From NCBI GenBank assembly GCA_000961765.1, contig LADT01000053.1, positions 124,001 to 188,000 of the forward strand: 64,000 nt of DNA, in the 5' to 3' direction. The stretch is from Clostridiaceae bacterium BRH_c20a. Its GTDB lineage: Bacteria; Bacillota; Peptococcia; Peptococcales; BICA1-8. The notes beneath the pieces were generated by a model. The model was not told the DNA's origin, ran no database searches, and saw only the letters and a program-made list of their open reading frames with translations. Of the stretch, positions 17,225 through 34,084 are shown piece by piece (the stretch's first letter is position 1; the number at the start of each line of letters is the position of its first letter). Made by a program: the position numbers and the translations under genes.

Positions 17225-17497
17225 TTACCCACCACCTAAAGCCAAAACAAATACTACCTCATCCCCATCCTGCAATACTTTATCAGGCAAACTTAAAGTA
17301 TTATTAACAATAAAGGAAATAAGGTATCTACGGGTACCTGAATTCATGAATACTACATCTTTAAACCGCCCGCCATAACATTCACTTAATAATACTACAA
17401 GATCTTCAATTGTTGATTCTTTTTTTAACTTCACTACTTCACTTTCTTTCCCTGCAGCAGTTGCAATTATCGAATTGTATTTAATATTTATGTACAT
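17225..17497 (-). CDS. moaD: MoaD/ThiS-like sulfur carrier protein
   Basis: About 90 residues with the beta-grasp pattern of MoaD (YINIKYNSIIATAAGKESEV ... STIEDLVVLLSECYG ... ISFIVNNT ... LQDGDEVVFVLALGGG) and a C-terminal Gly-Gly(-Gly) tail. As a thiocarboxylate, such a tail delivers sulfur to precursor Z to form molybdopterin, the pterin that holds tungsten in AOR enzymes. Its place as last gene of an operon containing an AOR supports a role in tungsten-pterin assembly. Start uncertain: ATG 17497 has a long spacing to AGAGGT; GTG 17512 overlaps that RBS. A partner MoaE is not in view. Confidence 0.8.
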   Translation of the reverse strand: MYINIKYNSIIATAAGKESEVVKLKKESTIEDLVVLLSECYGGRFKDVVFMNSGTRRYLISFIVNNTLSLPDKVLQDGDEVVFVLALGGG

Positions 17498-17514
17498 AAA
17501 AATAACTGTCACCT

Positions 17515-18795
17515 CTACTTGCTAAGTAATTTTGGTAAGAATAAAGCAATATCAGGGAAGAACAAAATTGTAACTACGCATAGTATTAAAGCCAATACAA
17601 AGGGTAGTACAGCAACTGAAACTTCCTCCAAAGAGATATCAGCAAGTTTCGTTACTACATAAAGGTTTGCACCTAAGGGAGGAGTTAAGAAACCAATTTC
17701 ACAGCAAATAACAAATATTATACCAAAGGTTATGGGATCTATCCCAAGCTGTGTAACAACAGGTAAAAAAATCGGAGTTAGGATAATTATCTGGGCTAAG
17801 GTTTCCATCCAGGTACCTACAAAGATAAGGAAACCTATTATCATAAGCATTACGATATAGGGATTTGAAGAAACACCGGTTAAAAACATGGCCACGTTTT
17901 GGGGAATTTGATACATTGCCAATAAGCGCCCAAATGCAACTGCAATACCTACGATTACAATTATAGTCCCGGACATGAAAGCTGCCCGAACCAGAGACTC
18001 ATATATCATTTTCCATTTAAGGGTCCTATGAATAAATAATCCAACAACTAGTGAGTATATTACCGCAACTTCGGCAGCCTCAGTTGGAGTAAAAATCCCC
18101 CCATAAATTCCTCCTAAAATTATTAAGGGTGCTAAAATTGCCCATTTGCCTTTCCACAATGCTTTACCAAATTCCCTGGGGGAGAATTTTTCTCCAGAGC
18201 CTATAAAACCTTTTCGCTTAGAAATAATATAGGCGGTAAAAATTAAGACCAAGCCGACAAATATCCCGGGAATAAAACCTGCCATAAACATTTGAGTAAC
18301 AGATACATTAGCAATTACTGCGTATATAATCATGGGGTTACTGGGGGGGATTAAGATACCCAGTACTCCGCCTGTTGCTACCACTCCGCCAGAAAAACGC
18401 TTTGTATAACCCCTGTTAATCATTGCAGGAATGGCTAGAGAGCCCACTGCTGCTGTAGTTGCTGGACCAGAGCCAGATAAAGCAGCAAAGAACATACAAG
18501 CTAAGATGGTTACAGCCGCTAAACCTCCTGTAAAATTGCCTACGCTTTTATTTGCAATTTCCATAACCTTATCTGTGATACCAGAACGCTCCATCAATTC
18601 ACCCGCTAATAGAAAACCTGTTACGGCAATCAATGGGAATTGATCAACTCCGGTATATAAAGATTGGGTTATTAAAGTCAAAGGAATATCATCTCTAACC
18701 AGCATAGGGATTAGAGTTGATAAGCCTATAGCAGCCATAATAGGTACTCCGAGGAGTAAAGTAACAATAAAGGTAATAGCTAGAAGAATATTAAT
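17515..18795 (-). CDS. dctM: TRAP transporter large subunit DctM, start codon lost or non-canonical
   Basis: About 12 membrane helices with TGGVLGILIPPSNPMIIYA, FTPTEAAEVAV and GFLTPPLGANLYV, as in the first DctM. The first canonical start is ATG 18738, but the homologous N-terminus (INILLAITFIVTLLLGVPIMAAIG) is encoded upstream and is intact. Aligned to the other dctM, whose GTG is followed by ITILL, this gene has GAG followed by INILL, after RBS AAGGGAG. Translation may begin at ATT 18795 or ATT 18789, or at ATG 18738, which has GGAG eight bases upstream but would lose most of helix 1. Coordinates given are for the longest plausible form. Confidence 0.85.
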   Translation of the reverse strand: MNILLAITFIVTLLLGVPIMAAIGLSTLIPMLVRDDIPLTLITQSLYTGVDQFPLIAVTGFLLAGELMERSGITDKVMEIANKSVGNFTGGLAAVTILACMFFAALSGSGPATTAAVGSLAIPAMINRGYTKRFSGGVVATGGVLGILIPPSNPMIIYAVIANVSVTQMFMAGFIPGIFVGLVLIFTAYIISKRKGFIGSGEKFSPREFGKALWKGKWAILAPLIILGGIYGGIFTPTEAAEVAVIYSLVVGLFIHRTLKWKMIYESLVRAAFMSGTIIVIVGIAVAFGRLLAMYQIPQNVAMFLTGVSSNPYIVMLMIIGFLIFVGTWMETLAQIIILTPIFLPVVTQLGIDPITFGIIFVICCEIGFLTPPLGANLYVVTKLADISLEEVSVAVLPFVLALILCVVTILFFPDIALFLPKLLSK

Positions 18796-18831
18796 CTCTC
18801 CCTTCTAAGAGTACTGCCAAATATAAAAACA

Positions 18832-19305
18832 TTACTTAGAAGTCCTATATCGGCGCCAATTTACCTGGATAATTCTAAATGTAGTCAGAGCAAAACCAAA
18901 GGGAATAACTAAATAAAGCCATTTTAAATCCCACTGTAGTGCGGGAGAAATTATTTTAAATCGCATCATTACCTTGGTCATCTCCCAGCTAATTAATATT
19001 ACAGCTATATTAAAACAAACCCAAAGCAAGTCGGCAAAAACCAAAAACCTCTCTTGCATTTTTTTAGAGAATAATTTTAAAAAGGTTGTTACTCTAATAT
19101 GACCTAGCCTTTTTGCACCCAAAGCAACACCTAAATAATTCATCCAAACAAAGCAGTATCTGATTATTTCCTCCTGCCAGCCAATGGCATCCTTAAATAC
19201 AAAACGTAAGAATACCTGAATACCCAGCAGTATTATAATAACTGATAAAAGAAGTGCACAGGCAGCTTCTTCAAAGTGCTCGTCTAAAGCTTTCCAAAAG
19301 GTCAT
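18832..19305 (-). CDS. dctQ: TRAP transporter small subunit DctQ
   Basis: A 157-residue membrane protein with four helices. Conserved features are EEAACALLLSVIIILLGIQVFLRF in helix 1, WQEEIIRYCFVWMNYLGVALGAKRLGHIRVTTF and a C-terminal helix FGFALTTFRIIQ. It pairs with the downstream DctM. ATG start after GGTGATGTTACC. It follows dctP by 74 bases that hold a stable hairpin. Confidence 0.9.
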   Translation of the reverse strand: MTFWKALDEHFEEAACALLLSVIIILLGIQVFLRFVFKDAIGWQEEIIRYCFVWMNYLGVALGAKRLGHIRVTTFLKLFSKKMQERFLVFADLLWVCFNIAVILISWEMTKVMMRFKIISPALQWDLKWLYLVIPFGFALTTFRIIQVNWRRYRTSK

Positions 19306-19340
19306 GGTAACATCACCGTCCTAATACATAAATTTTAGGA

Positions 19341-19364
19341 AGGGACAGCGGACATGCTGTCCCT
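19341..19364. promoter_or_regulatory. Hairpin between dctP and dctQ (second TRAP operon)
   Basis: Perfect 9-bp stem AGGGACAGC / GCTGTCCCT with a GGACAT loop just after the dctP stop and without T-run. It occupies the same spot as the hairpin at 9801-9826 although the sequence differs, so both TRAP operons probably use a message-stabilising stem behind the receptor gene. Confidence 0.6.
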
Positions 19365-19379
19365 CGCTTTACCATTACC

Positions 19380-20468
19380 CTATTTTTTCTTATAGCTTTC
19401 AACTAAGTCGATAATTTCTTTACCTTTGGCCTTATCACCTTTTCCAATAAGTTCATAAAACTCTGGCCAGATAGAACGTCCTTTTTCCACCCAAATTGGC
19501 TTATCCTCGGGCGGTCCCAGTAAAATCATCCCCTTTTCTTCCAAGGTCTTTTTGTCCTTTTCTAAAGAGGAATCAGATAATTGCCTTTCGAATTCCATAG
19601 TTTCTTTTCCGGCTTTAACTACTACCTGCTGTAAATCGGCGGGAAGTTTAGAAAAAAAGTCCTCAGACATAACTATAGTACTGGTCTGAAAGATATAGCC
19701 GATTTCTGTTACATACTTTTGAACTTCATAGAATTTTTCGGAAACGAATACTGTATAAGGATTATCCTGGGCATCAACAACCTTTTGCTGTAGAGCATTA
19801 AAGGTTTCCGACCATGCAACAGGAATTGGGTTAACTCCCCAGGCTTTATACACGCCCATCTGAATTGGGTTCTGGGGAACTCTAACTCTTAAATCTTGTA
19901 AGTCTTCTAAAGTTTTAACGGGCTTTTTGGAGTTAGTCAATTCTCTAAAGCCTGCGTCCATTAAGGAGAGTATTCTGACACCGCCCTCTTCCACGGACCA
20001 TTTATTGATTTGGTCCCACATAGTATCAATTACTTTGCGGCCTTCTTCAGTACTTTCAAATATATAGGGTAGTGTGAAGAAACCTAATTGCGGAACAGAA
20101 GGATTTAGGTTATTCATGCCAACAACAACCATTTGTTGAGTACCTAATTGAGTGCTGCGAACCTGTTCTTCTTCGCTTCCTAATTGGGAAGCAGGATATA
20201 TTTCTACTACAAGCTGTCCATCGGAGTTTTTCTCTGCCAATTCTTTAAACTTAAGAGAAACCTGGTGGAAAATTGAGTCCATAGTCGGTTGATTACTATG
20301 CCCCAATTTAATAGTGTAGACTTTCTTTTCCGGCTTCTTTTCTTCTGCAGGCTTTTGTTCACTCTGCTTTTGCTCTGCAGGAGGAGTTGTGCCTCCGCAG
20401 CCTGCAGCAAAAACCATAACGATAATTAAGGTCAGTGCCATTAAAATCATTGACTTCCCGTACTTCAT
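19380..20468 (-). CDS. dctP: TRAP transporter solute-binding lipoprotein DctP
   Basis: Lipoprotein with signal MKYGKSMILMALTLIIVMVF and lipobox AAGC (Cys24), a Pro/Glu/Lys linker and a DctP fold starting YTIKLGHSNQPT. The ligand-binding region contains DAGFRELTNSKKP and LRVRVPQNPIQ, with the conserved Arg that contacts carboxylate ligands. It is the receptor of the second TRAP importer. It follows AOR by 29 bases in the same operon, so the transported carboxylate is probably the substrate, or the precursor, of the E1/AOR reactions. Confidence 0.93.
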   Translation of the reverse strand: MKYGKSMILMALTLIIVMVFAAGCGGTTPPAEQKQSEQKPAEEKKPEKKVYTIKLGHSNQPTMDSIFHQVSLKFKELAEKNSDGQLVVEIYPASQLGSEEEQVRSTQLGTQQMVVVGMNNLNPSVPQLGFFTLPYIFESTEEGRKVIDTMWDQINKWSVEEGGVRILSLMDAGFRELTNSKKPVKTLEDLQDLRVRVPQNPIQMGVYKAWGVNPIPVAWSETFNALQQKVVDAQDNPYTVFVSEKFYEVQKYVTEIGYIFQTSTIVMSEDFFSKLPADLQQVVVKAGKETMEFERQLSDSSLEKDKKTLEEKGMILLGPPEDKPIWVEKGRSIWPEFYELIGKGDKAKGKEIIDLVESYKKK

Positions 20469-20497
20469 AAATCCATCCCCTTTCTTTTTTTAAATAT

Positions 20498-22336
20498 TTA
20501 CCTTAACTTAAGGGATTGTATTTTTTGTTTTCGGGGTATACCTTGTTTATCCCAATCCCTTAGTTCATAATACTCCTCTATGCATTGGGTAAATTCCGCA
20601 AGTACTTTGCCAGCCCTGAATCCCTCTTTGCCAGGCTCCATGCACCGTTCAGGAAGAACATCACTTTCTCTGTCAAAACCATCACGAATATTGATCAAGC
20701 GCTGCATGTTAAAAATCCTTTCACCAGTTTCCATTAACTTTTGGGGAGAATAATTCCAGCCGGTCACAGCATTGAGTGCTTTAACAGTGTCAGTTAAACT
20801 CATCCCGCAAATCTGCATGAAAATACAGGATACAAGGGAATCTAATGCTGATGCATAATCTTGAAAAATAGTAGCCAGCTTGGCTTGCCCTTCCATAGAG
20901 AAACGCTCAGATGCTTTTTCTAAACCGATTTCCGGAAGTATCATTCCGGTTTCTCCACAGTGAGGAAATCCTCTTAGATGGCAGGCACCCCGAGTACTTG
21001 TGGCATAGTTAACTGCTAAACTGAAGAATGACCTAGGATCATGGGCAGGGAGATCTAACCCCTTAACATGAACAGCCAGCCTTTCAGCTTCAGAACCAAG
21101 ATACTTGGCAGCAGGTATGATTCCGCCAGAAAATAAGCTCCCTAGTTTTTCTTTGTTACCGATTTGTTTAATAAGCTCAATCAATACTTTTCCACTTCCC
21201 CATTCCGGCTTAAGCCCTTGGAGAAGTTCTTCTTTAATTAATCCCTTTTCATAACACTCCATAATGAAAGCGACAAAAGCGCCTGCAGATATAGTATCAA
21301 TACCCAGTCTATTACAGATATCATTTGCTTCGGAAATTGCTATTAAATCATCTATGAGGCAACAGGAACCCAACATGCCTAGGCTTTCATACTCTGCACC
21401 TGCCCCATCTAGTAATCTGCCGTCAGGTAAAGTAACATTGATATGACGATGGCATCCTATTGGGCAATTTCGGCAAGGCCAAGGTTTTGCATTCAGCTGC
21501 TTAGTATAACTGACTGCATCTAATTTAACTGCCCCCCGGGGCCAGACATCCCCTGCCCAATATTTTATAGGCAAATCTCCACCGGCTTCGGCAGGACCAA
21601 CTAATACAGAGGTTCCGTGCTCTCTAAATGTTTCCTTGGTATTTTGTGCTAATAAATTTGACATCTCCCTATTTAAATTTGTTAATTCTTGTTTATTATA
21701 AATAGGTACCTGTTTAGTACCATTAACAACAACGGCCTTTAGGTTTTTAGAACCCATAACTGCTCCAAAGCCGCACCGCCCGGCAAAGCTGTGCATATCT
21801 GCTACAATACAAGCTATGGCAACCAATTTTTCCCCTGCTGGACCAATTGCTGCAACACTTACCTTATCATTTTGGAGTTCTTTTTTAATTAATCCAACAG
21901 CTTCAACTGCATCAAAACCCCATATCCGATGTGCAGTTTTGATTTCAACCTTGTCATTTTCTATAATAATATATACCGGATACGGAGACCGCCCTGAGAT
22001 AATTACAGCATCATATCCTGTTTGTTTAAATTTCACTCCCCATTCCGCTCCTGCCGTAGAGACAGCAAAGGTTCCAGTCTGAGGTGATTTTGTAATTACA
22101 GACCATTTCCCACTGCCAGGTACCCCAGTCCCCTGAAAGGGGCCTGTTGCAAAGATTAATAAATTCTCCGGTCCTAAAGGTTCAGAATCCTTTGACAATT
22201 CTTCATAAATTATCTTAGTGCCTAAACCTGATCCACCCAGAAATAACTGGGCATCTTCCTGAGAAAATTCCTCTTCTGTTACTTTTTTAGTACTTAAGTT
22301 GATACGCAGTAGTTTATTCCAATATCCTCCAGGCAA
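20498..22336 (-). CDS. aor: Aldehyde ferredoxin oxidoreductase (AOR), tungsten-pterin enzyme
   Basis: A 612-residue cytosolic enzyme with AOR domains 1-3. The [4Fe-4S] ligands are C288-x2-C291-x3-C295 (PWPCRNCPIGC) and a distal Cys near 504. The pterin-contact regions GPAGE (~165) and GFGAVMGSKNLKAVVV (~189-203) are intact. AORs oxidise aldehydes to acids, passing electrons to ferredoxin; the cofactor is tungstobispterin. TTG start after AGGGGGGACTATA. Gene order M20, E1 alpha, E1 beta, AOR, TRAP, moaD suggests that an aldehyde made by the E1 pair is oxidised here. No dedicated ferredoxin is adjacent, unlike the second AOR. Confidence 0.93.
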   Translation of the reverse strand: MPGGYWNKLLRINLSTKKVTEEEFSQEDAQLFLGGSGLGTKIIYEELSKDSEPLGPENLLIFATGPFQGTGVPGSGKWSVITKSPQTGTFAVSTAGAEWGVKFKQTGYDAVIISGRSPYPVYIIIENDKVEIKTAHRIWGFDAVEAVGLIKKELQNDKVSVAAIGPAGEKLVAIACIVADMHSFAGRCGFGAVMGSKNLKAVVVNGTKQVPIYNKQELTNLNREMSNLLAQNTKETFREHGTSVLVGPAEAGGDLPIKYWAGDVWPRGAVKLDAVSYTKQLNAKPWPCRNCPIGCHRHINVTLPDGRLLDGAGAEYESLGMLGSCCLIDDLIAISEANDICNRLGIDTISAGAFVAFIMECYEKGLIKEELLQGLKPEWGSGKVLIELIKQIGNKEKLGSLFSGGIIPAAKYLGSEAERLAVHVKGLDLPAHDPRSFFSLAVNYATSTRGACHLRGFPHCGETGMILPEIGLEKASERFSMEGQAKLATIFQDYASALDSLVSCIFMQICGMSLTDTVKALNAVTGWNYSPQKLMETGERIFNMQRLINIRDGFDRESDVLPERCMEPGKEGFRAGKVLAEFTQCIEEYYELRDWDKQGIPRKQKIQSLKLR

Positions 22337-22356
22337 TATAGTCCCCCCTTAATAGA

Positions 22357-23337
22357 CTATTTTTCCAGTACTAATTTAACACCAGTAATAATCTTCTCTG
22401 CATTTGGCAAATATAGCTGCTCTAAATCAGGTGAAAAGGGAATAGGTACATCAGGAGCGGCAACACGAGCTATTGGACCTTTTAATTCCTTGAAGCATTG
22501 TTCACTAATTACTGCTGATATTTCTGCCCCCATACCACCCCTCTTATTGGCTTCATGGGCAATAACAACTCTTCCGGTTTTGGCAACTGATGTAAAGATT
22601 GTCTCTAAATCCAATGGAATAAGGCTTCTTAAATCAATGACCTCGGCACTAATTCCTTGTTCTTCTAAAGTGAGTGCTGCCTCTATGGCTTTATGAACCA
22701 TTAATGAATAGGCTAAAATTGTTACATCTGTTCCTTCTTTCCTTACTGCAGCTTTACCAATGGGTACCAAATAATCATCGGCAGGCACTTGGCCTTTTAA
22801 GACATATAATAGCTTATGTTCAAAAAATACAACGGGGTCATTGTCTCTAATAGCACCCTTAAGTAAACCCTTAGCATCATAGGGAGTAGAAGGTACAAGC
22901 ATCTTTAACCCGGTTCCATGCATAAATAATGCTTCGGGGCATTGTGAGTGTTCCGATCCACCGCCTCCTTTTGCTCCCATAGGGGCCCTGACCACTATAG
23001 AAATATCCGGGGTGCCCCCATGCATATATTTCCATTTTCCAGCTTTGTTATAAATCTCATCTACACAAACTCCGACAAAATCAGCCAGCATTAATTCACA
23101 TACTGGGCGCATTCCACCCGCTGCTGCTGCGCCTACTGCTCCGCCAATAATTGCACTTTCTGATAGAGGAGTATCCCTAACCCTTTTCTGTCCAAATTTT
23201 TCATATAAACCTTTGGTAACTCCAAAGATACCTCCAAATTTCCCTACATCCTGTCCCATAATGAATACAGTATCATCTCTCTCCATCTCTTCCCTTAAGG
23301 CTTCATTTAAAGCTTCTGCATAAGTTATTTCCCTCAT
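22357..23337 (-). CDS. TPP-dependent 2-oxoacid/acetoin dehydrogenase E1 beta subunit
   Basis: A 326-residue transketolase-like beta chain with MREITYAEALNEALREEMERD at the N-terminus, GQDVGKFGGIFGVTKGL near 28, DTPLSESAIIGGAVGAAAAG and GGGGSEHSQCPEALFMH, then a C-terminal transketolase domain (VTILAYSLMVHKA, VIDLRSLIPLD). It overlaps the alpha gene by four bases. It completes the TPP pocket between alpha and beta. No E2 lipoyl transferase or E3 gene is within the window. Closest in style to AcoB of acetoin dehydrogenases, but pyruvate or branched-chain E1 cannot be excluded. Confidence 0.88.
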   Translation of the reverse strand: MREITYAEALNEALREEMERDDTVFIMGQDVGKFGGIFGVTKGLYEKFGQKRVRDTPLSESAIIGGAVGAAAAGGMRPVCELMLADFVGVCVDEIYNKAGKWKYMHGGTPDISIVVRAPMGAKGGGGSEHSQCPEALFMHGTGLKMLVPSTPYDAKGLLKGAIRDNDPVVFFEHKLLYVLKGQVPADDYLVPIGKAAVRKEGTDVTILAYSLMVHKAIEAALTLEEQGISAEVIDLRSLIPLDLETIFTSVAKTGRVVIAHEANKRGGMGAEISAVISEQCFKELKGPIARVAAPDVPIPFSPDLEQLYLPNAEKIITGVKLVLEK

Positions 23338-24326
23338 AAACTGATCCCCCTTTGAAACACCTCAGGATTAGCATAAACATCGGTAAAAAGTTCCTCAGGC
23401 TTTGGAACAGGACTATTATTGGCTAATTCCAATTCCTTTTGTATATTTTCCTTTACTTGCTCTTCGATCTGTTTTAACTCTTTTTTAGTAGCGGTTCCAT
23501 AATTTATTAGTTGTTTTTCAACCCTAATGATTGGACATTTCTGCTTCCATGCTTCAATTTCCGCCTTATCACGGTATTTAGTCCCATCTTCAAATTCATG
23601 ATGACCACACCAGCGATATGTTTTTCCTTCAATTATAGTTGGCCCTTCTCCAGCTCTCGCTCTTTCTACAGCCTGATTAACAGCTTGGTAAACTGCTAAT
23701 ACATCATTGCCATCTACTACAACACCTGGAATACCATAACTTGCTGCTCGGTCAGCAACATTATCAATTAACATAACCTGCTTCTGGTGGGTAGAAAAAC
23801 TGTAAGTATCATTTTCGCAAACAAATATTACAGGCAATTTCCAAACAGCAGCCATATTTACTCCTTCATGGAAAGGTCCCCTGTTTGAGGTTCCTTCTCC
23901 GAAAAAGCACATTGCAACCTGGTCAGTCCCTTTCATTTTTGCTCTTAGACCAGCTCCTGCAGCAATGACAAAATTTCCTCCTTGACTTCCGCTTATGCCC
24001 AGTACTCCCCGTGAATAATCAGATAGATGCACCCCGCCTTTTCCTTTGGAGCAACCGATGCTCCTACCCATAAATTCCCCTACTATTTGACTGGGAGGAA
24101 TCCCCTTAGTAAGAGAATGGCCTACTCCACGATGAGAAAACACTAAATAATCATCCTTCCGCATGGGAAGAGTAGCACCTACCGAAAGGGCTTCATGACC
24201 AATTCCAAGATGTAATGCCCCAAAGATTTTTTTCTCTATAACTAATTTTGCCATTTCTTCTTCAACAATCCTATTTAGCAGCATTTTTTCATAAAGTTCC
24301 AACATCAAACTTTTCGTAATTTCCAC
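23334..24326 (-). CDS. TPP-dependent 2-oxoacid/acetoin dehydrogenase E1 alpha subunit
   Basis: A 330-residue alpha chain. TPP/Mg motif: CFFGEGTSNRGPFHEGVNMA near 160-180, followed by WKLPVIFVCEND; upstream FSHRGVGHSLTKG and SIGCSKGKGGVHLSD (a phosphorylation-loop type region). The family decarboxylates a 2-oxoacid, or cleaves acetoin, to a TPP-bound aldehyde that normally goes to lipoyl-E2. Here no E2 follows; instead an AOR gene does. Without E2 the enzyme could release a free aldehyde, the AOR substrate. That is inference; an E2/E3 pair may lie elsewhere in the genome. Confidence 0.88.
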   Translation of the reverse strand: MEITKSLMLELYEKMLLNRIVEEEMAKLVIEKKIFGALHLGIGHEALSVGATLPMRKDDYLVFSHRGVGHSLTKGIPPSQIVGEFMGRSIGCSKGKGGVHLSDYSRGVLGISGSQGGNFVIAAGAGLRAKMKGTDQVAMCFFGEGTSNRGPFHEGVNMAAVWKLPVIFVCENDTYSFSTHQKQVMLIDNVADRAASYGIPGVVVDGNDVLAVYQAVNQAVERARAGEGPTIIEGKTYRWCGHHEFEDGTKYRDKAEIEAWKQKCPIIRVEKQLINYGTATKKELKQIEEQVKENIQKELELANNSPVPKPEELFTDVYANPEVFQRGISL

Positions 24327-24362
24327 ATTAATACCTCCAATTTTGAGATTTGTTATGCTACT

Positions 24363-25562
24363 TTAAAAAAATTCACCTCCTAATTTATCTAAAAGTTCTA
24401 TAGTAGTTCTTGCAATAATTGCTGACCCTATTGGTAAAATTTCTTCATCTATATTAAATTTTGGATGGTGAAGGGGATAAATTATTTCCTTAGAGGAATT
24501 ATAGGTACCAAGCCAAAAATAACAGCCCGGAATATTTTCCAAATAAACCGCAAAGTCTTCCGATGCCATAGATGGCTTATTAAATTCGAGAATATTTTCT
24601 TCCCCAATAATTTCTTTTGCACACTCTCTCAAATATGCGGTTATTTTCTCATCATTTTTTAATGCTGGGTAGCCATAAAAGTATTCAAACAAATATTCAG
24701 CATTATAGGCTTCTGTAAGACTCCTTAGCACCCTTTCTATCTCCTTCGGTAAAACCTCCTTTAATTTGGGATTAAGATAGCGGGTAGTACCCCTCAAGGT
24801 TATTTCTGAAGGAATGATATTTGTACCCTTCCCGCCCTCAATTTGACCTATTGATATTACAGTAGGGTTAAAAACATCTGTCATCCTTCTAGTCAGGCCA
24901 TTCAATGAATTAATAAGAGCCCCTGTTAATCCAACCAAATCAGTAGCTTCATGGGGAGCAGCACCATGACCTCCGCTTCCTAGCAATTTAATACAGAAAA
25001 CATCACCGGCAGCCATCATAGTTTTCTCGGAGATCATGATTTTTCCGCTTTCAAAATAGGGCCAAATATGTATCCCTAAAATTGCAGAGAGTTCTTTAAA
25101 ATAACGAGGCCTAGCTTCAATCATTCCCTTAGCTCCGCCCTGAGGCAGGTGTTCTTCAGCCGGTTGGAAAATAAAAGTTACCTTACCTTTAATACTGCTT
25201 TGGAGTTCTTTTATTATTGCTGCCGTCCCTAATACAATTGCCATATGCCCATCATGACCACAGGCATGCATTGAATTTGAAATATTGGATCTATAATCAA
25301 CTTCGTTTAGCTCACCTATTGGTAAAGCGTCCATATCAGCTCTTATTCCGATGTTGGGACCTTCTGACACACCTTCTAAAACAGCAACTATTCCACCTGA
25401 ACCAACATTGTCTTCAACAAATAAACCTAAGTTTATTAAATACTCTTTTATTACTCCAGCAGTTCTGGATTCTTGATATGATAATTCAGGATATTGATGC
25501 AGCTTTCTCCTCAGGGCGATTATTTCATCTTTATAGTTTTCTGCAATTTTTTTTATTTCCAA
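24363..25562 (-). CDS. M20 family amidohydrolase (hippurate/N-acyl-amino acid hydrolase-like)
   Basis: A 399-residue peptidase M20D enzyme with the metal ligands in SMHACGHDGHMAIVLG (~102-116), FQPAEEHLPQGG (Glu general base), LLGSGGHGAAPHEATD and MASEDFAVYLE. Opening RRKLHQYPELSYQE is typical. These enzymes remove an acyl group from amino acids or hydrolyse indole- and hippurate-type conjugates. TTG start with RBS AAAGGAGGG. First gene of the operon with E1, AOR and TRAP 2; it may release the amino or carboxylic acid that is then metabolised. Confidence 0.9.
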   Translation of the reverse strand: MEIKKIAENYKDEIIALRRKLHQYPELSYQESRTAGVIKEYLINLGLFVEDNVGSGGIVAVLEGVSEGPNIGIRADMDALPIGELNEVDYRSNISNSMHACGHDGHMAIVLGTAAIIKELQSSIKGKVTFIFQPAEEHLPQGGAKGMIEARPRYFKELSAILGIHIWPYFESGKIMISEKTMMAAGDVFCIKLLGSGGHGAAPHEATDLVGLTGALINSLNGLTRRMTDVFNPTVISIGQIEGGKGTNIIPSEITLRGTTRYLNPKLKEVLPKEIERVLRSLTEAYNAEYLFEYFYGYPALKNDEKITAYLRECAKEIIGEENILEFNKPSMASEDFAVYLENIPGCYFWLGTYNSSKEIIYPLHHPKFNIDEEILPIGSAIIARTTIELLDKLGGEFF

Positions 25563-25727: not shown

Positions 25728-27356
25728 TTAAAAACTTTTAGAATATTTGTAAAAGTTAATAGCAAGATGTACATTCAACTTATCATTCGGATCGCGAAGA
25801 TTTATTTTGCATAACTCCTCAATAAGGTTAATGCGATAACGAACAGTATTATGATGGATATACAAGCACTTTGATGTTGACCTAAAATTGCAGTCCTGTT
25901 TTAAAAACACCTCAAGTGTCTCTAGTAAGTTTATATTGTATGCTTGGTCGTGGGATATAATTGGCTGCAATATCTCAGAAACTATTCTTTCTGCTTTTTG
26001 TGAATTCAACAACTCACTTATTACTTTATAGACTCCAATTTTTCCGTATTCATTACTTTCTATATCTTTTTCACTTAATAAACTAACCTTAGCTGCGATA
26101 CAAGCTTCTTCAAAGGATTCTGGTATATTATCTAACTTCTGTTTACAACTGCCAATACCAATCCCAATTTTAAAATCAAAATTCTTTTCCCTAATAGCTT
26201 TCTTTAATTTTTCAGCAAAATCCGTTATAACAACAGGAATCTTTTCCTGCTCTTCCCAGGAGAAAATAATTACAATTCTGTCACTTCTATCCACACCCAA
26301 GGGAATGCTGTCCAAACGGCCTTTTATCATAAACCGAGAAACTAATTCATATAAATTCTGTAATTGTGCCCAATTCTGCCCTCCATGATTGATGCCCGAA
26401 ACATTCACCACTAGTATTATATTGTTTACACCCAGTTTCCATCCTAATTCCTGGGCTCTTTTTTTTAAGTTATATCCTATGGATTCTTCGCCTCTTAAAA
26501 GTATGTTAATTAAGTCATCTTTAAACCGTCTTCTTGTTTCACTTACAGATTTTAATTTTTGTATTTGCAAAGCCGAAACAGTAGCCGCATGTTCTACTGC
26601 AATTATATCTATCTCCGAAAGACTATTGGATTCCCAAACAACTACATATCCTTCTGTTTTCTGAGCAATGCGTATAGGTACAACAAAAAGGACACAGTCT
26701 TTAATTAATTTTTCCAGCTTATAAGCTATAAACTTCGAATATTTTTCCTGTTGATTTAATAATTCTGTCAAGACTATATCGGTATCCGCCTTCAAGTCTG
26801 GATAAGTGGTACTTGTAAAGGAAAATAGCTCAAAAATCGTTATTGGTTTTTTAATAAGATTATGGAGAGTTTTAGCAATGGAATTTAACTGACCATCTTG
26901 TAGAACCTCTTCTACAAAAGATTTATGAATTCTTTCCGAGGTTTCCAATTTCACCAGTTGGCGGTTTAGGATTTCTGCCATTATTGGGTTTATTAAATCT
27001 ACCCAAGCACATTCATAAGGAATTGATAAAATCGGCAGAGAATGCCTTTCCGCTATTTCTAAAATTTCTGCGGGCAGTGCATCAATATATCTTTTTAGCT
27101 TTATCCCTAGCGCGGAAGCCCCTTTTTTTGCTAATTCTTCAACCAAAAGCTTTTGAGAAACAGTATCTCTAAAAGGATACATTGTCGTTACAACAAGTTC
27201 ATTACCCTTAACCCAGTTTATAGCATCAGGTGCATCAAAAAAAGTAACATTAGAAACTTGTCTATCCAAGCCCCCATTACCAGCCAGAACTTCGGAATTT
27301 TTTAAGACCTGAAGGTTTAGCAGTTCTCTCACTGTAAAATATGTACCCTGAATCAT
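25728..27356 (-). CDS. PucR/CdaR-family transcriptional regulator
   Basis: Three domains in about 542 residues: an N-terminal PucR ligand domain (TVRELLNLQVLKNSEVLAG ... LVVTTMYPFRDT ... KRYIDALPAEI), a central GGDEF-like CdaR region (~280-400), and a C-terminal HTH_30 (LETLEVFLKQDCNFRSTSKC, IHHNTVRYRINLIEE). Such proteins activate purine, sugar-acid or amino acid degradation operons. It is transcribed just ahead of the M20-E1-AOR-TRAP operon and likely controls it. ATG 27356 has GGGTGG upstream; GTG 27368 is an alternative. No metal or DNA target can be read off. Confidence 0.88.
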   Translation of the reverse strand: MIQGTYFTVRELLNLQVLKNSEVLAGNGGLDRQVSNVTFFDAPDAINWVKGNELVVTTMYPFRDTVSQKLLVEELAKKGASALGIKLKRYIDALPAEILEIAERHSLPILSIPYECAWVDLINPIMAEILNRQLVKLETSERIHKSFVEEVLQDGQLNSIAKTLHNLIKKPITIFELFSFTSTTYPDLKADTDIVLTELLNQQEKYSKFIAYKLEKLIKDCVLFVVPIRIAQKTEGYVVVWESNSLSEIDIIAVEHAATVSALQIQKLKSVSETRRRFKDDLINILLRGEESIGYNLKKRAQELGWKLGVNNIILVVNVSGINHGGQNWAQLQNLYELVSRFMIKGRLDSIPLGVDRSDRIVIIFSWEEQEKIPVVITDFAEKLKKAIREKNFDFKIGIGIGSCKQKLDNIPESFEEACIAAKVSLLSEKDIESNEYGKIGVYKVISELLNSQKAERIVSEILQPIISHDQAYNINLLETLEVFLKQDCNFRSTSKCLYIHHNTVRYRINLIEELCKINLRDPNDKLNVHLAINFYKYSKSF

Positions 27357-27486
27357 TTTAAAAACCACCCGATTAATGTTTGTATTATACTTATATCATA
27401 TCTAAGTAAATTTATAAATGAGTCTGCCTTCAATTAGTCTCCTCACCTGTGTTCATTTGTGGTTTTAAATAATTCTATTTATAAAA

Positions 27487-27554: not shown

Positions 27555-29354
27555 CTATAATCCTAATGCCTGCAACTTTTCTTCTGTTGGTACACCATCA
27601 TTATTCCAACCCATGGCAGCGTAGTAGTTATCCAACAAGGTTTCTAAATCTACTACCTGACCTTTGCTTTCACCAAACGCCATTGGCTCTTCGGTGAAAC
27701 GTTTGGGCAGTGTATCATCTTTTCTAGCGAAACCATTTTTAACATTGTACATTCTTTCCATGTTAAAAATTCTTTCGGCATTAAAGAGCATCTTTTCTTC
27801 TGTAAGTTCATAACCAGTTACTAATTTAAAGGCTTTTAACTGGTCAGCTCTTAAGAAACCATTTTGGCAAGTTGCACAGAAGCCAAGCGAATCAACTGCT
27901 GCAAAGTTTAATTGGGTATTTCTAACTAAAGTTTCTTTGCCCTTTTCTTCAAAACGGTTTCCTGCTGCCATTTCACCACCGAAGACTGGAGCTACCATAT
28001 GGTGGGCACCCTTGGGTGATGTCGCATATGTTAAAGCCATCCCTTTTGCTCCTCGGGGGTCATATACAGCAAAGGTCATCCCTTTAGAATGCATAGCTAA
28101 TTCAGGAGCACCCCATTTTTCGGCAGCATAGGCTGGTCCTTCTGCTAGATCTGCACCAATACCTTTTTTATAAGCTATCATTTCTAACAATTCAGCTTCT
28201 GCTTTACCATTACCAAAGCTCAGCTCTAAGCCGTTAGTATCTTTTAATGTTAATATCCCTTTTTCGAAGCATTCCATTGCTAAGGAAACGCAACCGCCGG
28301 CAGTTATAGAGTCTAACCCTAAGGCATCACAAATGGCGGAAACATGTAGAACATCTTCCCAATTTGTTAACCCACAGTTAGTTCCTAATAGTCCTAATGT
28401 TTCAAATTCCGGACCTTCTAATTTTACAGCACCATATTTTGTAGAGACTATTGCACTATTTTTACCACAGGCAATAGGACAGGCATAACAGGAAACATCA
28501 TTATAAACTACTTTTTCTCTAAATAAGGATCCTTCAAATTCTTTGTTTGCTTCAGATGTACCCTCACTAAAATTCTTGGTACACATAAAACCGGCATTAT
28601 TTATACCACGAACTAACTCATTTGTTCCTTCTACTCTACGAATTTGAGCCTTGGGGTTTTTCTTAAAGTTAGGATATAGCCCTGCTACTAATTCCATCAA
28701 GCCCTCTGGATCAGCTACCTCTACGTCTTTAGAACCCCTTACTGCGATTGCTTTTAAATTTTTAGAGCCCATTACTGCTCCACCGCCGCCACGACCAAAC
28801 TCACGGAAAACATCACTAGTAACACAAGCAATGTTTACTTGGTTTTCTCCGGCAGGTCCAATGCAAGCAACATGAATTTTTTGATCATTTAATTCTTCTT
28901 TTATCAGGTGGTCTGTATCAGCTATTTTTTGACCCCATAGCTTATCAGCTGATTTTATTTCTACCTTATCATTATCTATCCAAAGGTAAACAGGCTCTTC
29001 AGATTTACCTTCTATAATTAAACCATCATATCCAGCAAACTTTAGTTCCGGTCCAAAATGACCACCACATAATGAATAGGAGTAGGTATTTGTTAAAGGA
29101 GATTTAAAGGCAACATTAATCTTGTTGTTACCTGGCACCATTGTTCCGGAAAACGGACCATTAAAAAATATTAGTTTATTTTCAGGACTAAGTCCGTGAA
29201 TTTTAGGATCAACCTCTTTGTCTAAATAAAAGGCTCCTAAACCTCTGCCGCCTAGATAATCGATAAACATTTCCAATGGCAGTTGTTCATTAGTTATTTT
29301 TTTAGTAGTTAAATTTACTCTGAGCAGTTGTCCAGCTATACCATTCTTAGTCAT
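27555..29354 (-). CDS. aor: Aldehyde ferredoxin oxidoreductase (AOR) with partner ferredoxin
   Basis: A 599-residue AOR. Cluster ligands C289-x2-C292-x3-C296 (VSCYACPIACG) with the fourth Cys in LGFCATCQNG near 500; pterin-binding GPAGENQ and GGGAVMGSKNLKAIAV are intact. ATG 29354 lies nine bases after AAAGGAGG and one base after the ferredoxin stop; nine in-frame codons further upstream lack an RBS. Clearly diverged from the AOR at 20.5 kb. Paired with a 16-Cys ferredoxin, it resembles AorB-AorA type complexes that oxidise aldehydes or, with surplus reductant, reduce acids. Own promoter and terminator. Confidence 0.93.
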   Translation of the reverse strand: MTKNGIAGQLLRVNLTTKKITNEQLPLEMFIDYLGGRGLGAFYLDKEVDPKIHGLSPENKLIFFNGPFSGTMVPGNNKINVAFKSPLTNTYSYSLCGGHFGPELKFAGYDGLIIEGKSEEPVYLWIDNDKVEIKSADKLWGQKIADTDHLIKEELNDQKIHVACIGPAGENQVNIACVTSDVFREFGRGGGGAVMGSKNLKAIAVRGSKDVEVADPEGLMELVAGLYPNFKKNPKAQIRRVEGTNELVRGINNAGFMCTKNFSEGTSEANKEFEGSLFREKVVYNDVSCYACPIACGKNSAIVSTKYGAVKLEGPEFETLGLLGTNCGLTNWEDVLHVSAICDALGLDSITAGGCVSLAMECFEKGILTLKDTNGLELSFGNGKAEAELLEMIAYKKGIGADLAEGPAYAAEKWGAPELAMHSKGMTFAVYDPRGAKGMALTYATSPKGAHHMVAPVFGGEMAAGNRFEEKGKETLVRNTQLNFAAVDSLGFCATCQNGFLRADQLKAFKLVTGYELTEEKMLFNAERIFNMERMYNVKNGFARKDDTLPKRFTEEPMAFGESKGQVVDLETLLDNYYAAMGWNNDGVPTEEKLQALGL

Positions 29355-29355
29355 C

Positions 29356-29814
29356 TTATTCATCCTCCTTTGTAGCGGCAACTAACTTATCGGCTTCTTC
29401 CCTATCAAGAAAATAAAGGGCATTTTCCGGGCAGTATTTGACACATTGGGGGTCTCCACCACATAGGTCACAAATTAAAACATATTTTTCAGAAGGATGA
29501 ACCTTAATAGCATTATACGGACATGCTTTAATACACATTTTACAGGCAATACATTTTTCTTCATCAACTATGATTGCGCCTGTATTCTCATCTTTACTCA
29601 ATGCATCTATTTTGGTAGGACATGCTTTAATACATGGGGTATCAACACATTGTCTGCATACAACAGGATAATCCATGTAATCTTCATGACTTCTGGTAAC
29701 TGTTATCCTGGATTTCTTAGGATTTCCTGTTCGGAAATGACTCATGCTGCACCACTGCTCACAAATACGACAACCAACACACTTCTTTGCATCAGCTACT
29801 AATACTTTGCTCAT
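29356..29814 (-). CDS. AorB/HycB-like polyferredoxin, four [4Fe-4S] clusters
   Basis: A 152-residue iron-sulfur protein with exactly sixteen cluster cysteines in four groups: CVGCRICEQWC (~12-22), CRQCVDTPCIKAC (~53-65), CIACKMCIKAC (~88-98) and CDLCGGDPQCVKYC (~118-131). The spacing matches electron-transfer subunits of the HycB/CooF/AorB type. It precedes AOR by one base and should shuttle electrons between AOR and ferredoxin or another acceptor. RBS GGAGGTGTAGTAAAG before ATG. Confidence 0.92.
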   Translation of the reverse strand: MSKVLVADAKKCVGCRICEQWCSMSHFRTGNPKKSRITVTRSHEDYMDYPVVCRQCVDTPCIKACPTKIDALSKDENTGAIIVDEEKCIACKMCIKACPYNAIKVHPSEKYVLICDLCGGDPQCVKYCPENALYFLDREEADKLVAATKEDE

Positions 29815-30227: not shown

Positions 30228-31031
30228 TTATTCTGTATATAATCCTTTACGGTGGACAGCAATGTAATTCATGCAAAAGTCATCTTTTCCAAGAAGCGCC
30301 TGAGAAGCATAGATAAATCCCATCATCTTCTTATCAAGAGGGTCAAGGATATAAGAGTCCATTCCAGCTGTCATGGTCTGAATCATAAACGTTTGATTAA
30401 TTATTTTTCTAGTTGGCAGCCCAAAAGAAACATTACTCAATCCGCAAATCTTGTGGACACGGGGGTACTGTTCTTTTAATTTTAACAAAGTCTCTAGAAC
30501 TGCTACACCTGCTTGGGAATCAAAACTAACAGGTTGAACTAAAGGATCAAGATGGATATCATCTTCTTTAACACCGGCTGAGACCAAATCGTTAACCAAT
30601 CTATCAGCTATCCGTAACCGATCTTCAGTAGTCTTAGGCATTCCCGAATCATCCATGCACAAAGCAATAACTTTTACCTTATACTCCACAACTAAAGGAA
30701 TAACTTCGGAAAACTTTTTTGCTTCAGCGGTTATTGAATTAACCATCGGCTGATAGTTATTATTAATTGATGATAAACCCGCTTTCAATACTTTAGGATT
30801 AGGACTATCAATACATAATGGAGCAGAAACCTTATCTTGAATTACCTTTACTAGCCAAGCCATTATTTCTGGTTCGTTATATACCTGAGTTCCACAATTA
30901 ACATCAATGTAGTGGGCACCCGCTTCAACTTGTTTTTGTGCAATTTCTTGAATTAAGGTGCTATCCATTTTTTCTAAAGCATCTTTGATCATTGATCTGC
31001 TAGAATTAATGAGTTCTCCAACAATAAGCAT
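30228..31031 (-). CDS. Corrinoid:tetrahydrofolate methyltransferase (MtgA/AcsE-like, MT II)
   Basis: A 267-residue pterin-binding (DHPS-fold) enzyme: LIVGELINSSR at the start, EAGAHYIDVNCGT near 37-49, PLCIDSPNPKVL, ALCMDDSGMP, DIHLDPLVQPVS and KICGLSNVSFGLP. These match MtgA/AcsE proteins, which transfer a methyl group between a corrinoid protein and tetrahydrofolate. RBS AGGAGG. As last gene of an operon with a UroD-like enzyme, a corrinoid protein and an activation-domain protein it supplies the second methyl-transfer step, giving methyl-H4folate for acetogenic or oxidative C1 metabolism. Confidence 0.9.
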   Translation of the reverse strand: MLIVGELINSSRSMIKDALEKMDSTLIQEIAQKQVEAGAHYIDVNCGTQVYNEPEIMAWLVKVIQDKVSAPLCIDSPNPKVLKAGLSSINNNYQPMVNSITAEAKKFSEVIPLVVEYKVKVIALCMDDSGMPKTTEDRLRIADRLVNDLVSAGVKEDDIHLDPLVQPVSFDSQAGVAVLETLLKLKEQYPRVHKICGLSNVSFGLPTRKIINQTFMIQTMTAGMDSYILDPLDKKMMGFIYASQALLGKDDFCMNYIAVHRKGLYTE

Positions 31032-31330
31032 TTTATTTTTCCTCCTGAAATAGTTTAATAAATATTAATTCCCTAACTTTCTAGAAATAGTTATTCTTCC
31101 ACAATTAAATCATTAAATGTTCTATCAGAAGAAATATCAATATATGTTGCCTATTTTAGAATATTGTCTATTTTTTGTTTTTTTATTTACTAAATAAGTA
31201 TATCCATGTGGGTTCCAAAGCCCCCCAACAATATAAACAATTTCTATTTCTTTCAATGTAGATAGTAAATTCAAAACTCTTTTAAAAGTTAAATTATCCT
31301 GCCTATCTTTTTGTACGACAAGTCAAGTAA
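31032..31330. other. AT-rich spacer without recognisable gene
   Basis: About 300 bases between the activation-domain gene and the MT II gene. I see no ORF with an RBS, no terminator with a T-run on the minus strand and no repeat family. It may carry a secondary promoter, but no consensus stands out. Confidence 0.4.
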
Positions 31331-31963
31331 TCAAATCTTCATCTTATAATTGCATTTTTCCATACTACAATTTGAACAGTTATGTCCTTTTCTCATTGTA
31401 GATATCTTTTCCCCTGCTCCACAAAAATAAGTGATTGACTTTAAAGGCATTAACATATTTCCTGAACTTATTGAAACACCCATGTTTATTAAATTCAACT
31501 TTTCAAAAATTTCTTTCTGTATTTGCAAAGGCACATTTTCACTGCCCGGTTCGATTTTCTCAGTTAAATTCCAGCCATTTTCCTGGGCTTCAAGAAGTGC
31601 TTTGCAATATAATTGTTCGCTCATTTTAAAGATAATTTCATCAGCTATTACCTCTAACAGCATTGCTTCCAAATATTCACCCTTAGCAAAATAATCTTTA
31701 GTTTTTAAGCTGACTTCTTCGCCTAATGTCAAAAAGCATAATACTATTTTTCCACAATTAGACATTTCTGGGAACTCAAAATTCGGGGGAATATCAATGA
31801 AACCATAAACTCCTATTGGATCTATAATATCCTTAATATTTTTTAAAAAACTATCGTAAATTCTGGATAAATTATTATAGGCAGGACTTTTAGGTCGACA
31901 GTCAATTATTTTAAAAATCCGCTCTTTTTCTATTACCCATTCAAATTCAGTAATTGTTTTCAT
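31331..31963 (-). CDS. MetH activation-domain-like protein with C-terminal Cys cluster
   Basis: A 210-residue protein resembling the vitamin B12-dependent methionine synthase activation domain: VLCFLTLGEEVSLKTKDYFAKGEYLEAMLLEVIADEI (central helices), then EPGSENVPLQIQKEIFEKL and VSISSGNMLMPLKSITYFCG. The tail CSNCSMEKCNYK adds four closely spaced Cys that could bind a metal or cluster. Stand-alone versions are common in corrinoid methyltransferase operons and are thought to bind the corrinoid protein during reactivation or cofactor handling. It lies between the corrinoid and MT II genes. Confidence 0.75.
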   Translation of the reverse strand: MKTITEFEWVIEKERIFKIIDCRPKSPAYNNLSRIYDSFLKNIKDIIDPIGVYGFIDIPPNFEFPEMSNCGKIVLCFLTLGEEVSLKTKDYFAKGEYLEAMLLEVIADEIIFKMSEQLYCKALLEAQENGWNLTEKIEPGSENVPLQIQKEIFEKLNLINMGVSISSGNMLMPLKSITYFCGAGEKISTMRKGHNCSNCSMEKCNYKMKI

Positions 31964-32013
31964 GAAGTCACCTTAATCCCTGAACTATTAATTTGGGAGA
32001 TTCTAATCTAGAA

Positions 32014-32196
32014 TTGGAAGTTGGAAGTTGGAAGTTAGATTTTTTCCCGAAATGCTCCGAAGTTTTGCTATAATCCAACCTCCATAAGTTGGGGACATTC
32101 GTCAACCCAATAGCTGTTCGTTGGGGACATTCCTCAGCCCAATAGTAACACTACAAATGAGGTGTGTCCCCTATCCTCTTAATGAGGTGTGTCCCC
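32014..32196. repeat. Repeat cluster inside the methyltransferase operon
   Basis: Three tandem TTGGAAG units (32014-32034), then two 26-bp direct repeats (32088-32113 and 32120-32145) sharing GTTGGGGACATTC and CCCAATAG, then two copies of AATGAGGTGTGTCCCC (32156-32171 and 32181-32196) that are inverted relative to the first pair around the core GGGGACA..CCTCA. No ORF. The arrangement resembles a small mobile-element remnant and could fold strongly in the message between the corrinoid and activation genes. Confidence 0.7.
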
Positions 32197-32204
32197 CATT
32201 CCTA

Positions 32205-32834
32205 TTACACCAGTTTCCTAGCCATTTCTGCAGCCGAAACAGCATCGGTAGCATAGCCATCTGCCCCAATATCTTTACAATATTGTTCAGTTACTGGTGC
32301 ACCACCGATCATAACCTTTACTTGATCTCTTAAACCTTCTTTAATTAAGGTATCAATTACTGTCTTTTGTTCTACCATTGTAGTTGATAAAAGTGAAGAC
32401 AAAGCAAGAATGTCGGGTTTATGTTCCTTAATAGCTTCAATAAATTTGTCCTCATGAACATCTATACCTACATCAACAACCTCTAATCCAGAGCCCATCA
32501 TTACCATACCCACGAGATTTTTTCCTATATCATGAAGATCTCCCTTTACTGTACCTAAAACAACCTTGGCAAATGGTTTTACTCCTGTATTTGCTAAAAT
32601 TGGCTTAAGAACATTTAACCCAAAATGCATAGCACGGGCAGCAATCAACACTTCTGGTACAAAAACTTCATTATTTTTAAACTTAGCACCAATAATACCC
32701 ATGCCCTTTAATAATCCATCACTCAAAATATTTGAGGGACTAACCCCCAGGTTTAAAGCCTCTTGTGCTTTTTCTCCGACTAAGTCTGCATCTCCATTTT
32801 GTAAAGCTTGGGAAATTTCATTTAGAACTTCCAT
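32205..32834 (-). CDS. Corrinoid (B12-binding) methyltransferase protein
   Basis: A 209-residue protein of the MtaC/MtbC/MtgC type: N-terminal four-helix cap (EISQALQNGDADLVGEKAQEAL ... EVFVPEVLIAARAM) and a Rossmann B12 domain with the lower-ligand motif GDLHDIGKNLV (His101), then SSLLSTTM and GGAPVTEQYC. It carries the methyl group between MT I and MT II. ATG 32834 has GGAGGT seven bases upstream; the upstream ATG overlaps that RBS. Located directly after the UroD-like gene, its probable methyl donor partner. Confidence 0.93.
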   Translation of the reverse strand: MEVLNEISQALQNGDADLVGEKAQEALNLGVSPSNILSDGLLKGMGIIGAKFKNNEVFVPEVLIAARAMHFGLNVLKPILANTGVKPFAKVVLGTVKGDLHDIGKNLVGMVMMGSGLEVVDVGIDVHEDKFIEAIKEHKPDILALSSLLSTTMVEQKTVIDTLIKEGLRDQVKVMIGGAPVTEQYCKDIGADGYATDAVSAAEMARKLV

Positions 32835-32873
32835 TCGGCAAACCTCCATTAAATATGATATTTTTATATAAAT

Positions 32874-34010: not shown

Positions 34011-34084
34011 ATTTTTCCACTCCTCATAATATGTCATTATCCTCTTGAAAAAAGTCATTATTTCTAATGAAATCAAACGGAAAT

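Follow-up and report, generated by a model that had tools for sequence, protein, structure and literature searches.

Of the 92 clades of tungsten oxidoreductases (WORs), only five include a member whose role is defined; one WOR has been made in Eubacterium limosum, a tungsten-competent host; class I WORs are accompanied by a ThiS-like protein, WorX, and the aldehyde:ferredoxin oxidoreductase (AOR) of Pyrococcus furiosus shows its highest activity with aldehydes from decarboxylated 2-oxoacids (PMC13328260). In Pelobacter carbinolicus an acetoin:DCPIP oxidoreductase and tungsten-dependent acetaldehyde oxidation coexist (PMC4275255), in the sulfo-TK pathway a two-subunit transketolase yields sulfoacetaldehyde (PMC11659671), and AORs are able to reduce acids according to two reports (PMC10816221, PMC12727526). 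A text search of the WOR classification paper (PMC13328260) returned no occurrence of TRAP, pyruvate dehydrogenase, thiamine, acetoin, 2-oxo or aldolase, and our literature search found no paper joining AOR with a tripartite ATP-independent periplasmic (TRAP) importer and E1 or thiamine diphosphate (ThDP); one hit for AOR with acetoin and E1 seemed to concern another subject. Here we analyse an operon that holds AOR, TRAP and E1 genes on a 64,000-nucleotide stretch of Clostridiaceae bacterium BRH_c20a (contig LADT01000053.1, positions 124,001 to 188,000; the window hereafter). An eight-gene unit on the minus strand (25562-17225) codes in this order for an M20 amidohydrolase, the alpha and beta subunits of a pyruvate dehydrogenase (PDH)-type E1, an AOR, the TRAP subunits DctP, DctQ and DctM, and a MoaD/ThiS-like protein. 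The explanation that we find best overall, and consider probable on the strength of the gene content and residues described below, is that an E2-independent ThDP lyase or decarboxylase feeds a ferredoxin-reducing class I tungsten oxidoreductase.

On this explanation the TRAP system would import an organic acid, from which the M20 protein probably strips an N-acyl or amide group, either before or after the E1/AOR step. E1alpha-beta, working without E2 and E3 as a ThDP-dependent C-C lyase, would decarboxylate a 2-oxoacid or cleave an alpha-hydroxyketone, and the ThDP-bound enamine would be protonated and depart as a free aldehyde rather than going to lipoate. The class I tungsten oxidoreductase would then turn the aldehyde into a carboxylate and reduce ferredoxin, the ThiS/MoaD-like protein (WorX) probably assists tungstopterin synthesis, and a PucR regulator would sense the substrate.

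The E1 pair and its cofactor site

An earlier note on the window had described this operon and proposed that its E1, having no E2 or E3, could release an aldehyde for AOR to oxidise. Its gene order and span were matched exactly by the open reading frames (ORFs) and by Pfam search, in which all the expected families were recovered; the intergenic gaps range from -4 to 93 bp, and on reading through the ORF list we found no E2 or E3 in the whole window. The alpha subunit (23334-24326; minus strand, as are all features given below for the unit) matches E1_dh (PF00676) with 272 bits and Transketolase_N with only 20.5 bits, below the cut-off of 22. The beta subunit (22357-23337) matches Transket_pyr with 138 bits and Transketolase_C with 148 bits, and the pair thus has the domains of a PDH-family E1 (alpha2beta2).

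The alpha subunit carries a variant Mg-ThDP motif. An alignment of 115 E1alpha sequences, together with an alignment to human PDH, showed three changes that the window has in common with its one close relative, from Moorella sulfitireducens (see the next section): GDG to GEG, ENN to END and RGH to RGV. The Asp of the GDG motif is D in 110 of the 115 and E in the remaining 5 (E144 in the window, codon 23895-23897). At the second ligand position, in the ENN motif, 113 sequences have N and D occurs solely in the window and Moorella (D173, codon 23808-23810); these two are also the only ones to combine E with D. The active-site His of RGH is present in 105 cases and replaced by V in 3, including both of ours (V68, codon 24123-24125). 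The canonical GDG...NN motif is therefore absent from the window and Moorella E1alpha, where it reads GEG...ND, with acidic residues that could still bind metal. E1beta retains both catalytic residues, Glu in PLSE and His in SEHSQ, and E1alpha retains its loop His (GHH). With these residues in place, and the predicted ThDP-metal ligands and the pocket His changed, the enzyme appears to be functional but re-tuned in its pocket and its ThDP-metal site.

In the E1 tree the window and Moorella sequences form one clade (support 1.0), which is separate both from the acoX-linked E1s and from the clade of the other E1 of the source genome (on contig C15, 45-52% identical to the window E1). Acetoin, which the earlier note had offered as a possible substrate, is for this reason not favoured: the acoX-linked clade is the acetoin-type one, and acoX itself is missing.

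E2 lies within 6 kb of 103 of the 109 other E1 pairs that have enough flank. The pair at L058 has no adjoining E2 of its own, and its contig also carries a full set; at L062:7965-12539 (G012) two tandem E1alpha-beta pairs are present with no E2 beside them. An alphaproteobacterial metagenome-assembled genome also has an E1alpha-beta pair without E2 (L233:8767-13822) in which the loop His of E1alpha is replaced by Gln, making it a candidate E2-free E1; it adjoins two isomerases that are 26% and 43% related to those of the split-transketolase cluster L303 described below.

A second carrier of the unit and the relatives of its oxidoreductase

On searching 398 genomes of the phylum for relatives, we found one close relative, in M. 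sulfitireducens SLA38 (G342; NZ_JANRHG010000013), with E1alpha 66% and AOR 59% identical and encoded on one contig. The cluster (L146) reads GntR, PucR, M20, DctP, DctQ, DctM, E1alpha, E1beta, AOR and ThiS-like. Its TRAP block is transposed as compared to the window, and in both genomes M20 lies near the front, E1alpha, E1beta and AOR are contiguous with a gap of 12-20 bp between the last two, and the ThiS-like gene is last. Global identities between the two are 64-67% for E1 (E1alpha 64%, E1beta 67%), 59% for AOR, 52-67% for TRAP (DctM 67%, DctP 56%), 45% for M20 and 40% for PucR. With this gene set shared, the arrangement in the window is more than chance.

The M. sulfitireducens assembly (~99% complete) has no 2-oxoacid_dh (E2) domain. 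Because this model misses the lipoyl-hydrolase-fusion E2s of some acetoin-type (Pseudomonas-type) systems, we also searched the genome for lipoyl domains; the Biotin_lipoyl search gave no E2, its three strong matches being biotin carriers (EAMKM/EAMKL) and its two weak ones HlyD-like. The E1alpha of the unit is the only full E1alpha of this genome and, as no E2 of either kind is present in the assembly, it has no E2 to work with. That coenzyme A (CoA) and lipoate are bypassed, as the earlier note had it, thus follows for Moorella, and may hold for the window genome.

Wider searches added no further carrier. Among 84,980 species genomes, a scan with E1alpha as a single protein found no relative, and a scan with an 85-aa alignment of the E1beta pair gave M. 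sulfitireducens as the only close relative and mostly ordinary E1-E2 operons otherwise; it may be noted that the latter relies on exact 7-8 residue patterns, by which diverged members may be missed. Within the same family and order no further member turned up, nor did one among the other Moorella species searched.

The window AOR (20498-22336; AFOR_N and AFOR_C; WorL) has P. furiosus AOR (1aor, 414 bits) as its closest solved relative. In the numbering of that enzyme it keeps Thr243, Glu313, His448 and the Cys ligands (CxxCxxxC plus a distal Cys), and Tyr427 is replaced by His, likewise in most relatives examined. No gene for the ferredoxin-like WorS subunit adjoins it, E1beta lying upstream and DctP downstream, and because of this and of the ThiS-like protein in the operon, its sequence fits a class I WOR with WorX.

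The AOR tree has a clade (support 0.999) that joins the window and Moorella enzymes to that of genome G091 (62% identical to the window AOR) and, more distantly, to those at L148, L157 and L158 and in genome G189. If E1 and AOR are coupled, relatives of this AOR are expected beside other aldehyde-releasing lyases, and two such cases were found. The G091 locus (L147:184-12436), an ectoine-type cluster of an anaerobe, has PucR, M20, EhuBCA, an MttB family methyltransferase, a pyridoxal phosphate (PLP) protein of the threonine aldolase family, AOR, a ThiS-like protein and a DoeA-like ectoine hydrolase; EhuA, EhuB and EhuC score above cut-off as ectoine-transporter proteins and the DoeA-like protein scores 468 bits against a cut-off of 613. 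A plausible route here would lead from hydroxyectoine to 3-hydroxy-2,4-diaminobutyrate, which the aldolase would split into glycine and an aminoaldehyde for oxidation by AOR. In G189 (L303:9579-13222) a split transketolase (Transketolase_N and Transketolase_C proteins) lies directly upstream of AOR with a gap of 11 bp, in a cluster that also has ComA, a sulfoquinovose-isomerase-like protein (best NCBIfam match), a psicose-epimerase-like protein, LarA and an ABC importer, and that has the look of a sulfosugar pathway or a related one. Therefore one AOR clade adjoins three unrelated C-C-cleaving enzymes that could release aldehydes, and this genomic pattern is the best support that we have for the coupling.

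The source genome (4.5 Mb, 92 contigs) has 25 full-length AOR genes, 15 of them with an adjoining ferredoxin-like gene, plus several AOR fragments, which is an unusual expansion. Of the 25, 11 have a TRAP DctM gene at a distance of at most 6.5 kb, nearly all of them without E1, and therefore the association of AOR with TRAP is commonplace in this genome and does not count as evidence that E1 is coupled to AOR. Also on contig C92 of this genome (L076:10640 and 12428), an ORF starting MTKFIDLTLPLYDYMPVGNVWA is present twice within 2 kb beside AOR genes, apparently as a recent duplication.

Hydrolase, importer, regulator and upstream genes

The M20 protein (24363-25562; Peptidase_M20, 144 bits) resembles the IAA-amino-acid hydrolase, CpsA and DoeB2 proteins. 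It matches the NCBIfam amidohydrolase subfamily with 340 bits (cut-off 154) and stays under the equivalog cut-offs of CpsA (367 against 500) and DoeB2 (NF038260; 277 against 550), the latter being missed also by the M20 proteins of Moorella (338) and G091 (262). Ectoine was considered as the substrate of the window unit and rejected as such, since neither the window genome nor the Moorella genome has a DoeA orthologue, which makes ectoine itself unlikely.

The importer consists of the solute-binding protein DctP (19380-20468; 250 bits), the small membrane subunit DctQ (18832-19305; 99 bits) and the large membrane subunit DctM (17515-18738; 370 bits). The predicted structure of DctP (mean pLDDT 70, three sequences) resembles TRAP receptors in general, with 4pfr as the nearest solved one, and hence no ligand can be read from the model. 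The ThiS/MoaD-like small protein (17225-17512; ThiS, 32 bits), the putative WorX, has a GGG end, and its C-terminal LALGGG is common to the window, Moorella and G091 copies.

Ahead of M20 lies a PucR-type regulator (25728-27368; PucR 118 bits, HTH_30 73 bits), which was missed in the earlier note. It immediately precedes M20 also in Moorella and G091, at about 40% identity, and is a member of the unit and its first gene. A terminator-like hairpin (27514-27489) is located between PucR and the upstream AOR (AOR2). This second AOR and its ferredoxin-like gene occupy 27555-29814, just upstream of PucR, with L060_16580 (G001) as the nearest sequence in the AOR tree. Beside it, at 30228-34076, a probable corrinoid methyltransferase set (MtrH-like, corrinoid protein, UroD-like) was recognised by eye, possibly an O-demethylation unit.

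Competing explanations and known systems

The claim of the earlier note that E1 and AOR are coupled gains from the fact that two distant genomes both tie the E1 pair to AOR, TRAP and a ThiS-like protein, and gains little from AOR and TRAP alone, for the reason given above. The gene content, its conservation, the lack of E2 in one carrier genome and the kept catalytic residues of E1 and AOR are direct observations; we infer from this genomic evidence that the aldehyde is released free, that it passes from E1 to AOR and that the reaction runs in the oxidative direction. Several observations weigh against this. No single substrate accounts for M20, TRAP and E1 together, and the exact unit is present in two genomes only. 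The loop His of E1alpha is kept; in PDH this residue aids transfer to lipoate, and its retention counts against full independence from lipoate. The Moorella contig stops ~110 bp past the ThiS-like gene, so that a gene might have been lost there in an assembly gap, and the source genome itself holds an E2 and an E3 that may serve the window E1 in trans. Its AOR genes adjoin many different things. In the AOR tree the window enzyme is nearer to that of G091 than to that of Moorella, and therefore E1 and AOR have not moved strictly together; the G189 AOR is only ~42% identical to the window AOR, and the clade members at L148, L157 and L158 have no such lyase partner.

The E2 and E3 of the source genome deserve attention, as the earlier note had named such genes elsewhere in the genome, with matching expression, as evidence against its proposal. 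A genome-wide search found two E1_dh pairs and one E2, so that the genome is literally not free of E2 and E3; they sit, however, in another operon behind an E1 pair of their own. This operon, on contig C15, reads GntR, a small 93-aa protein (unclassified, and occupying the position of MoaD), AOR, a 3-hydroxyacid-dehydrogenase-like protein, DctP, DctQ, DctM, SDR, E1alpha, E1beta, E2, E3, a Zn-alcohol-dehydrogenase-like protein and an IlvD-like protein. If the window E1 borrows the C15 E2 and E3, it would be part of an ordinary oxidative 2-oxoacid or acyloin dehydrogenase, with AOR merely oxidising an aldehyde co-product of acyloin cleavage. Apart from the presence of one E2/E3 set in the genome, this is in line with the AOR found beside complete E1-E2-E3 sets, not only at C15 but also at L060 (G001), L154 (G334), L259 (G420), L262 (G226) and L265 (G428), where acyloin cleavage by E1 could normally yield the aldehyde as a co-product. 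It is also in line with the E1 pairs that have no adjoining E2 of their own (L058, L062) and with the coexistence of both activities in P. carbinolicus (PMC4275255). Yet the unit is complete in M. sulfitireducens, whose assembly has no E2 at all, and the C15 E2 has its dedicated E1 in a separate clade; we therefore regard borrowing as unlikely.

Still less likely, in our estimate, is that E1 and AOR are mere neighbours, with AOR, TRAP and ThiS forming a stand-alone module and the E1 reaction unrelated to it. The source-genome AORs that lie near TRAP without E1 and the same-clade AORs without a ThDP enzyme (L148, L157, L158) would suit such a module, but the E1beta-AOR adjacency is kept in two genomes despite the move of the TRAP block. 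A reversed route is very improbable. In it, AOR would draw on reduced ferredoxin to convert an imported acid into an aldehyde, which would then be the acceptor when the E1 pair forms an acyloin or ketol by ThDP carboligation. Acid reduction by AORs is on record, as mentioned at the outset, and E1-like and transketolase enzymes are capable of carboligation, but the unit has no gene for acyloin use or export, catabolism is suggested by its importer, its hydrolase and its regulator PucR, and the relatives of its AOR adjoin lyases of catabolic clusters.

The E2-independent lyase feeding AOR is thus the explanation we retain. The central point of the earlier note, an E1 without E2 tied to AOR, is strengthened; the absence of E2 and E3 had to be corrected at the level of the genome, and acetoin has weakened as a substrate. 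A broader view, which in our judgement has an even chance of being right, is that a PDH-type E1, its metal site altered, has become dedicated to forming aldehydes as a ThDP lyase free of E2, and that in anaerobic catabolism one class I WOR clade serves as a plug-in aldehyde sink for several unrelated C-C lyases (E1alpha-beta, a threonine-type aldolase and a split transketolase), with a low-potential electron harvest free of CoA and lipoate. Textbooks present E1 components as parts of lipoate-dependent complexes; an E1 that had lost E2 for good and was wired to a tungsten enzyme would show how E1 proteins lend themselves to reuse as plain lyases. It would also assign a physiological function to one clade of class I WORs and account for the reduced ferredoxin that some anaerobes obtain from substrates not activated with CoA.

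Compared with known systems, the window AOR is like the class I WORs (PfAOR, CsWOR87, BmWOR) in its single large subunit, AFOR_N/AFOR_C domains, Cys ligands, Glu313, His448 and adjoining ThiS-like protein, and differs in being locked to an E1 pair, no E1 or other ThDP partner being mentioned in PMC13328260 for the terms searched. Decarboxylation of 2-oxoacids followed by AOR in P. furiosus has the same logic of an aldehyde oxidised with ferredoxin (PMC13328260), whereas in the window the ThDP enzyme is a PDH-type E1 in the operon of AOR itself. Acetoin dehydrogenase (AcoABC/AcoL) has an E1alpha-beta of the same superfamily, and its E1 cleavage releases acetaldehyde; the window unit, unlike it, has no E2, E3 or acoX, and its E1 falls outside the acoX-linked clade. 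The split transketolase SqwGH of the sulfo-TK pathway is a ThDP enzyme of two subunits that works without E2 and gives sulfoacetaldehyde (PMC11659671), and a split transketolase abuts the G189 AOR, but the window alpha subunit is E1_dh and not Transketolase_N. Ectoine and hydroxyectoine catabolism (EhuABC, DoeA, DoeB2) is approached by the G091 cluster with its EhuABC and DoeA-like proteins, and M20 and PucR are common to G091 and the window; the window, in contrast, has neither a DoeA orthologue nor an aldolase, and has TRAP in place of the ABC importer. We therefore rate the window unit as following a known logic, from 2-oxoacid-derived aldehyde to AOR, and as new in pairing a PDH-type E1 with AOR in one operon.

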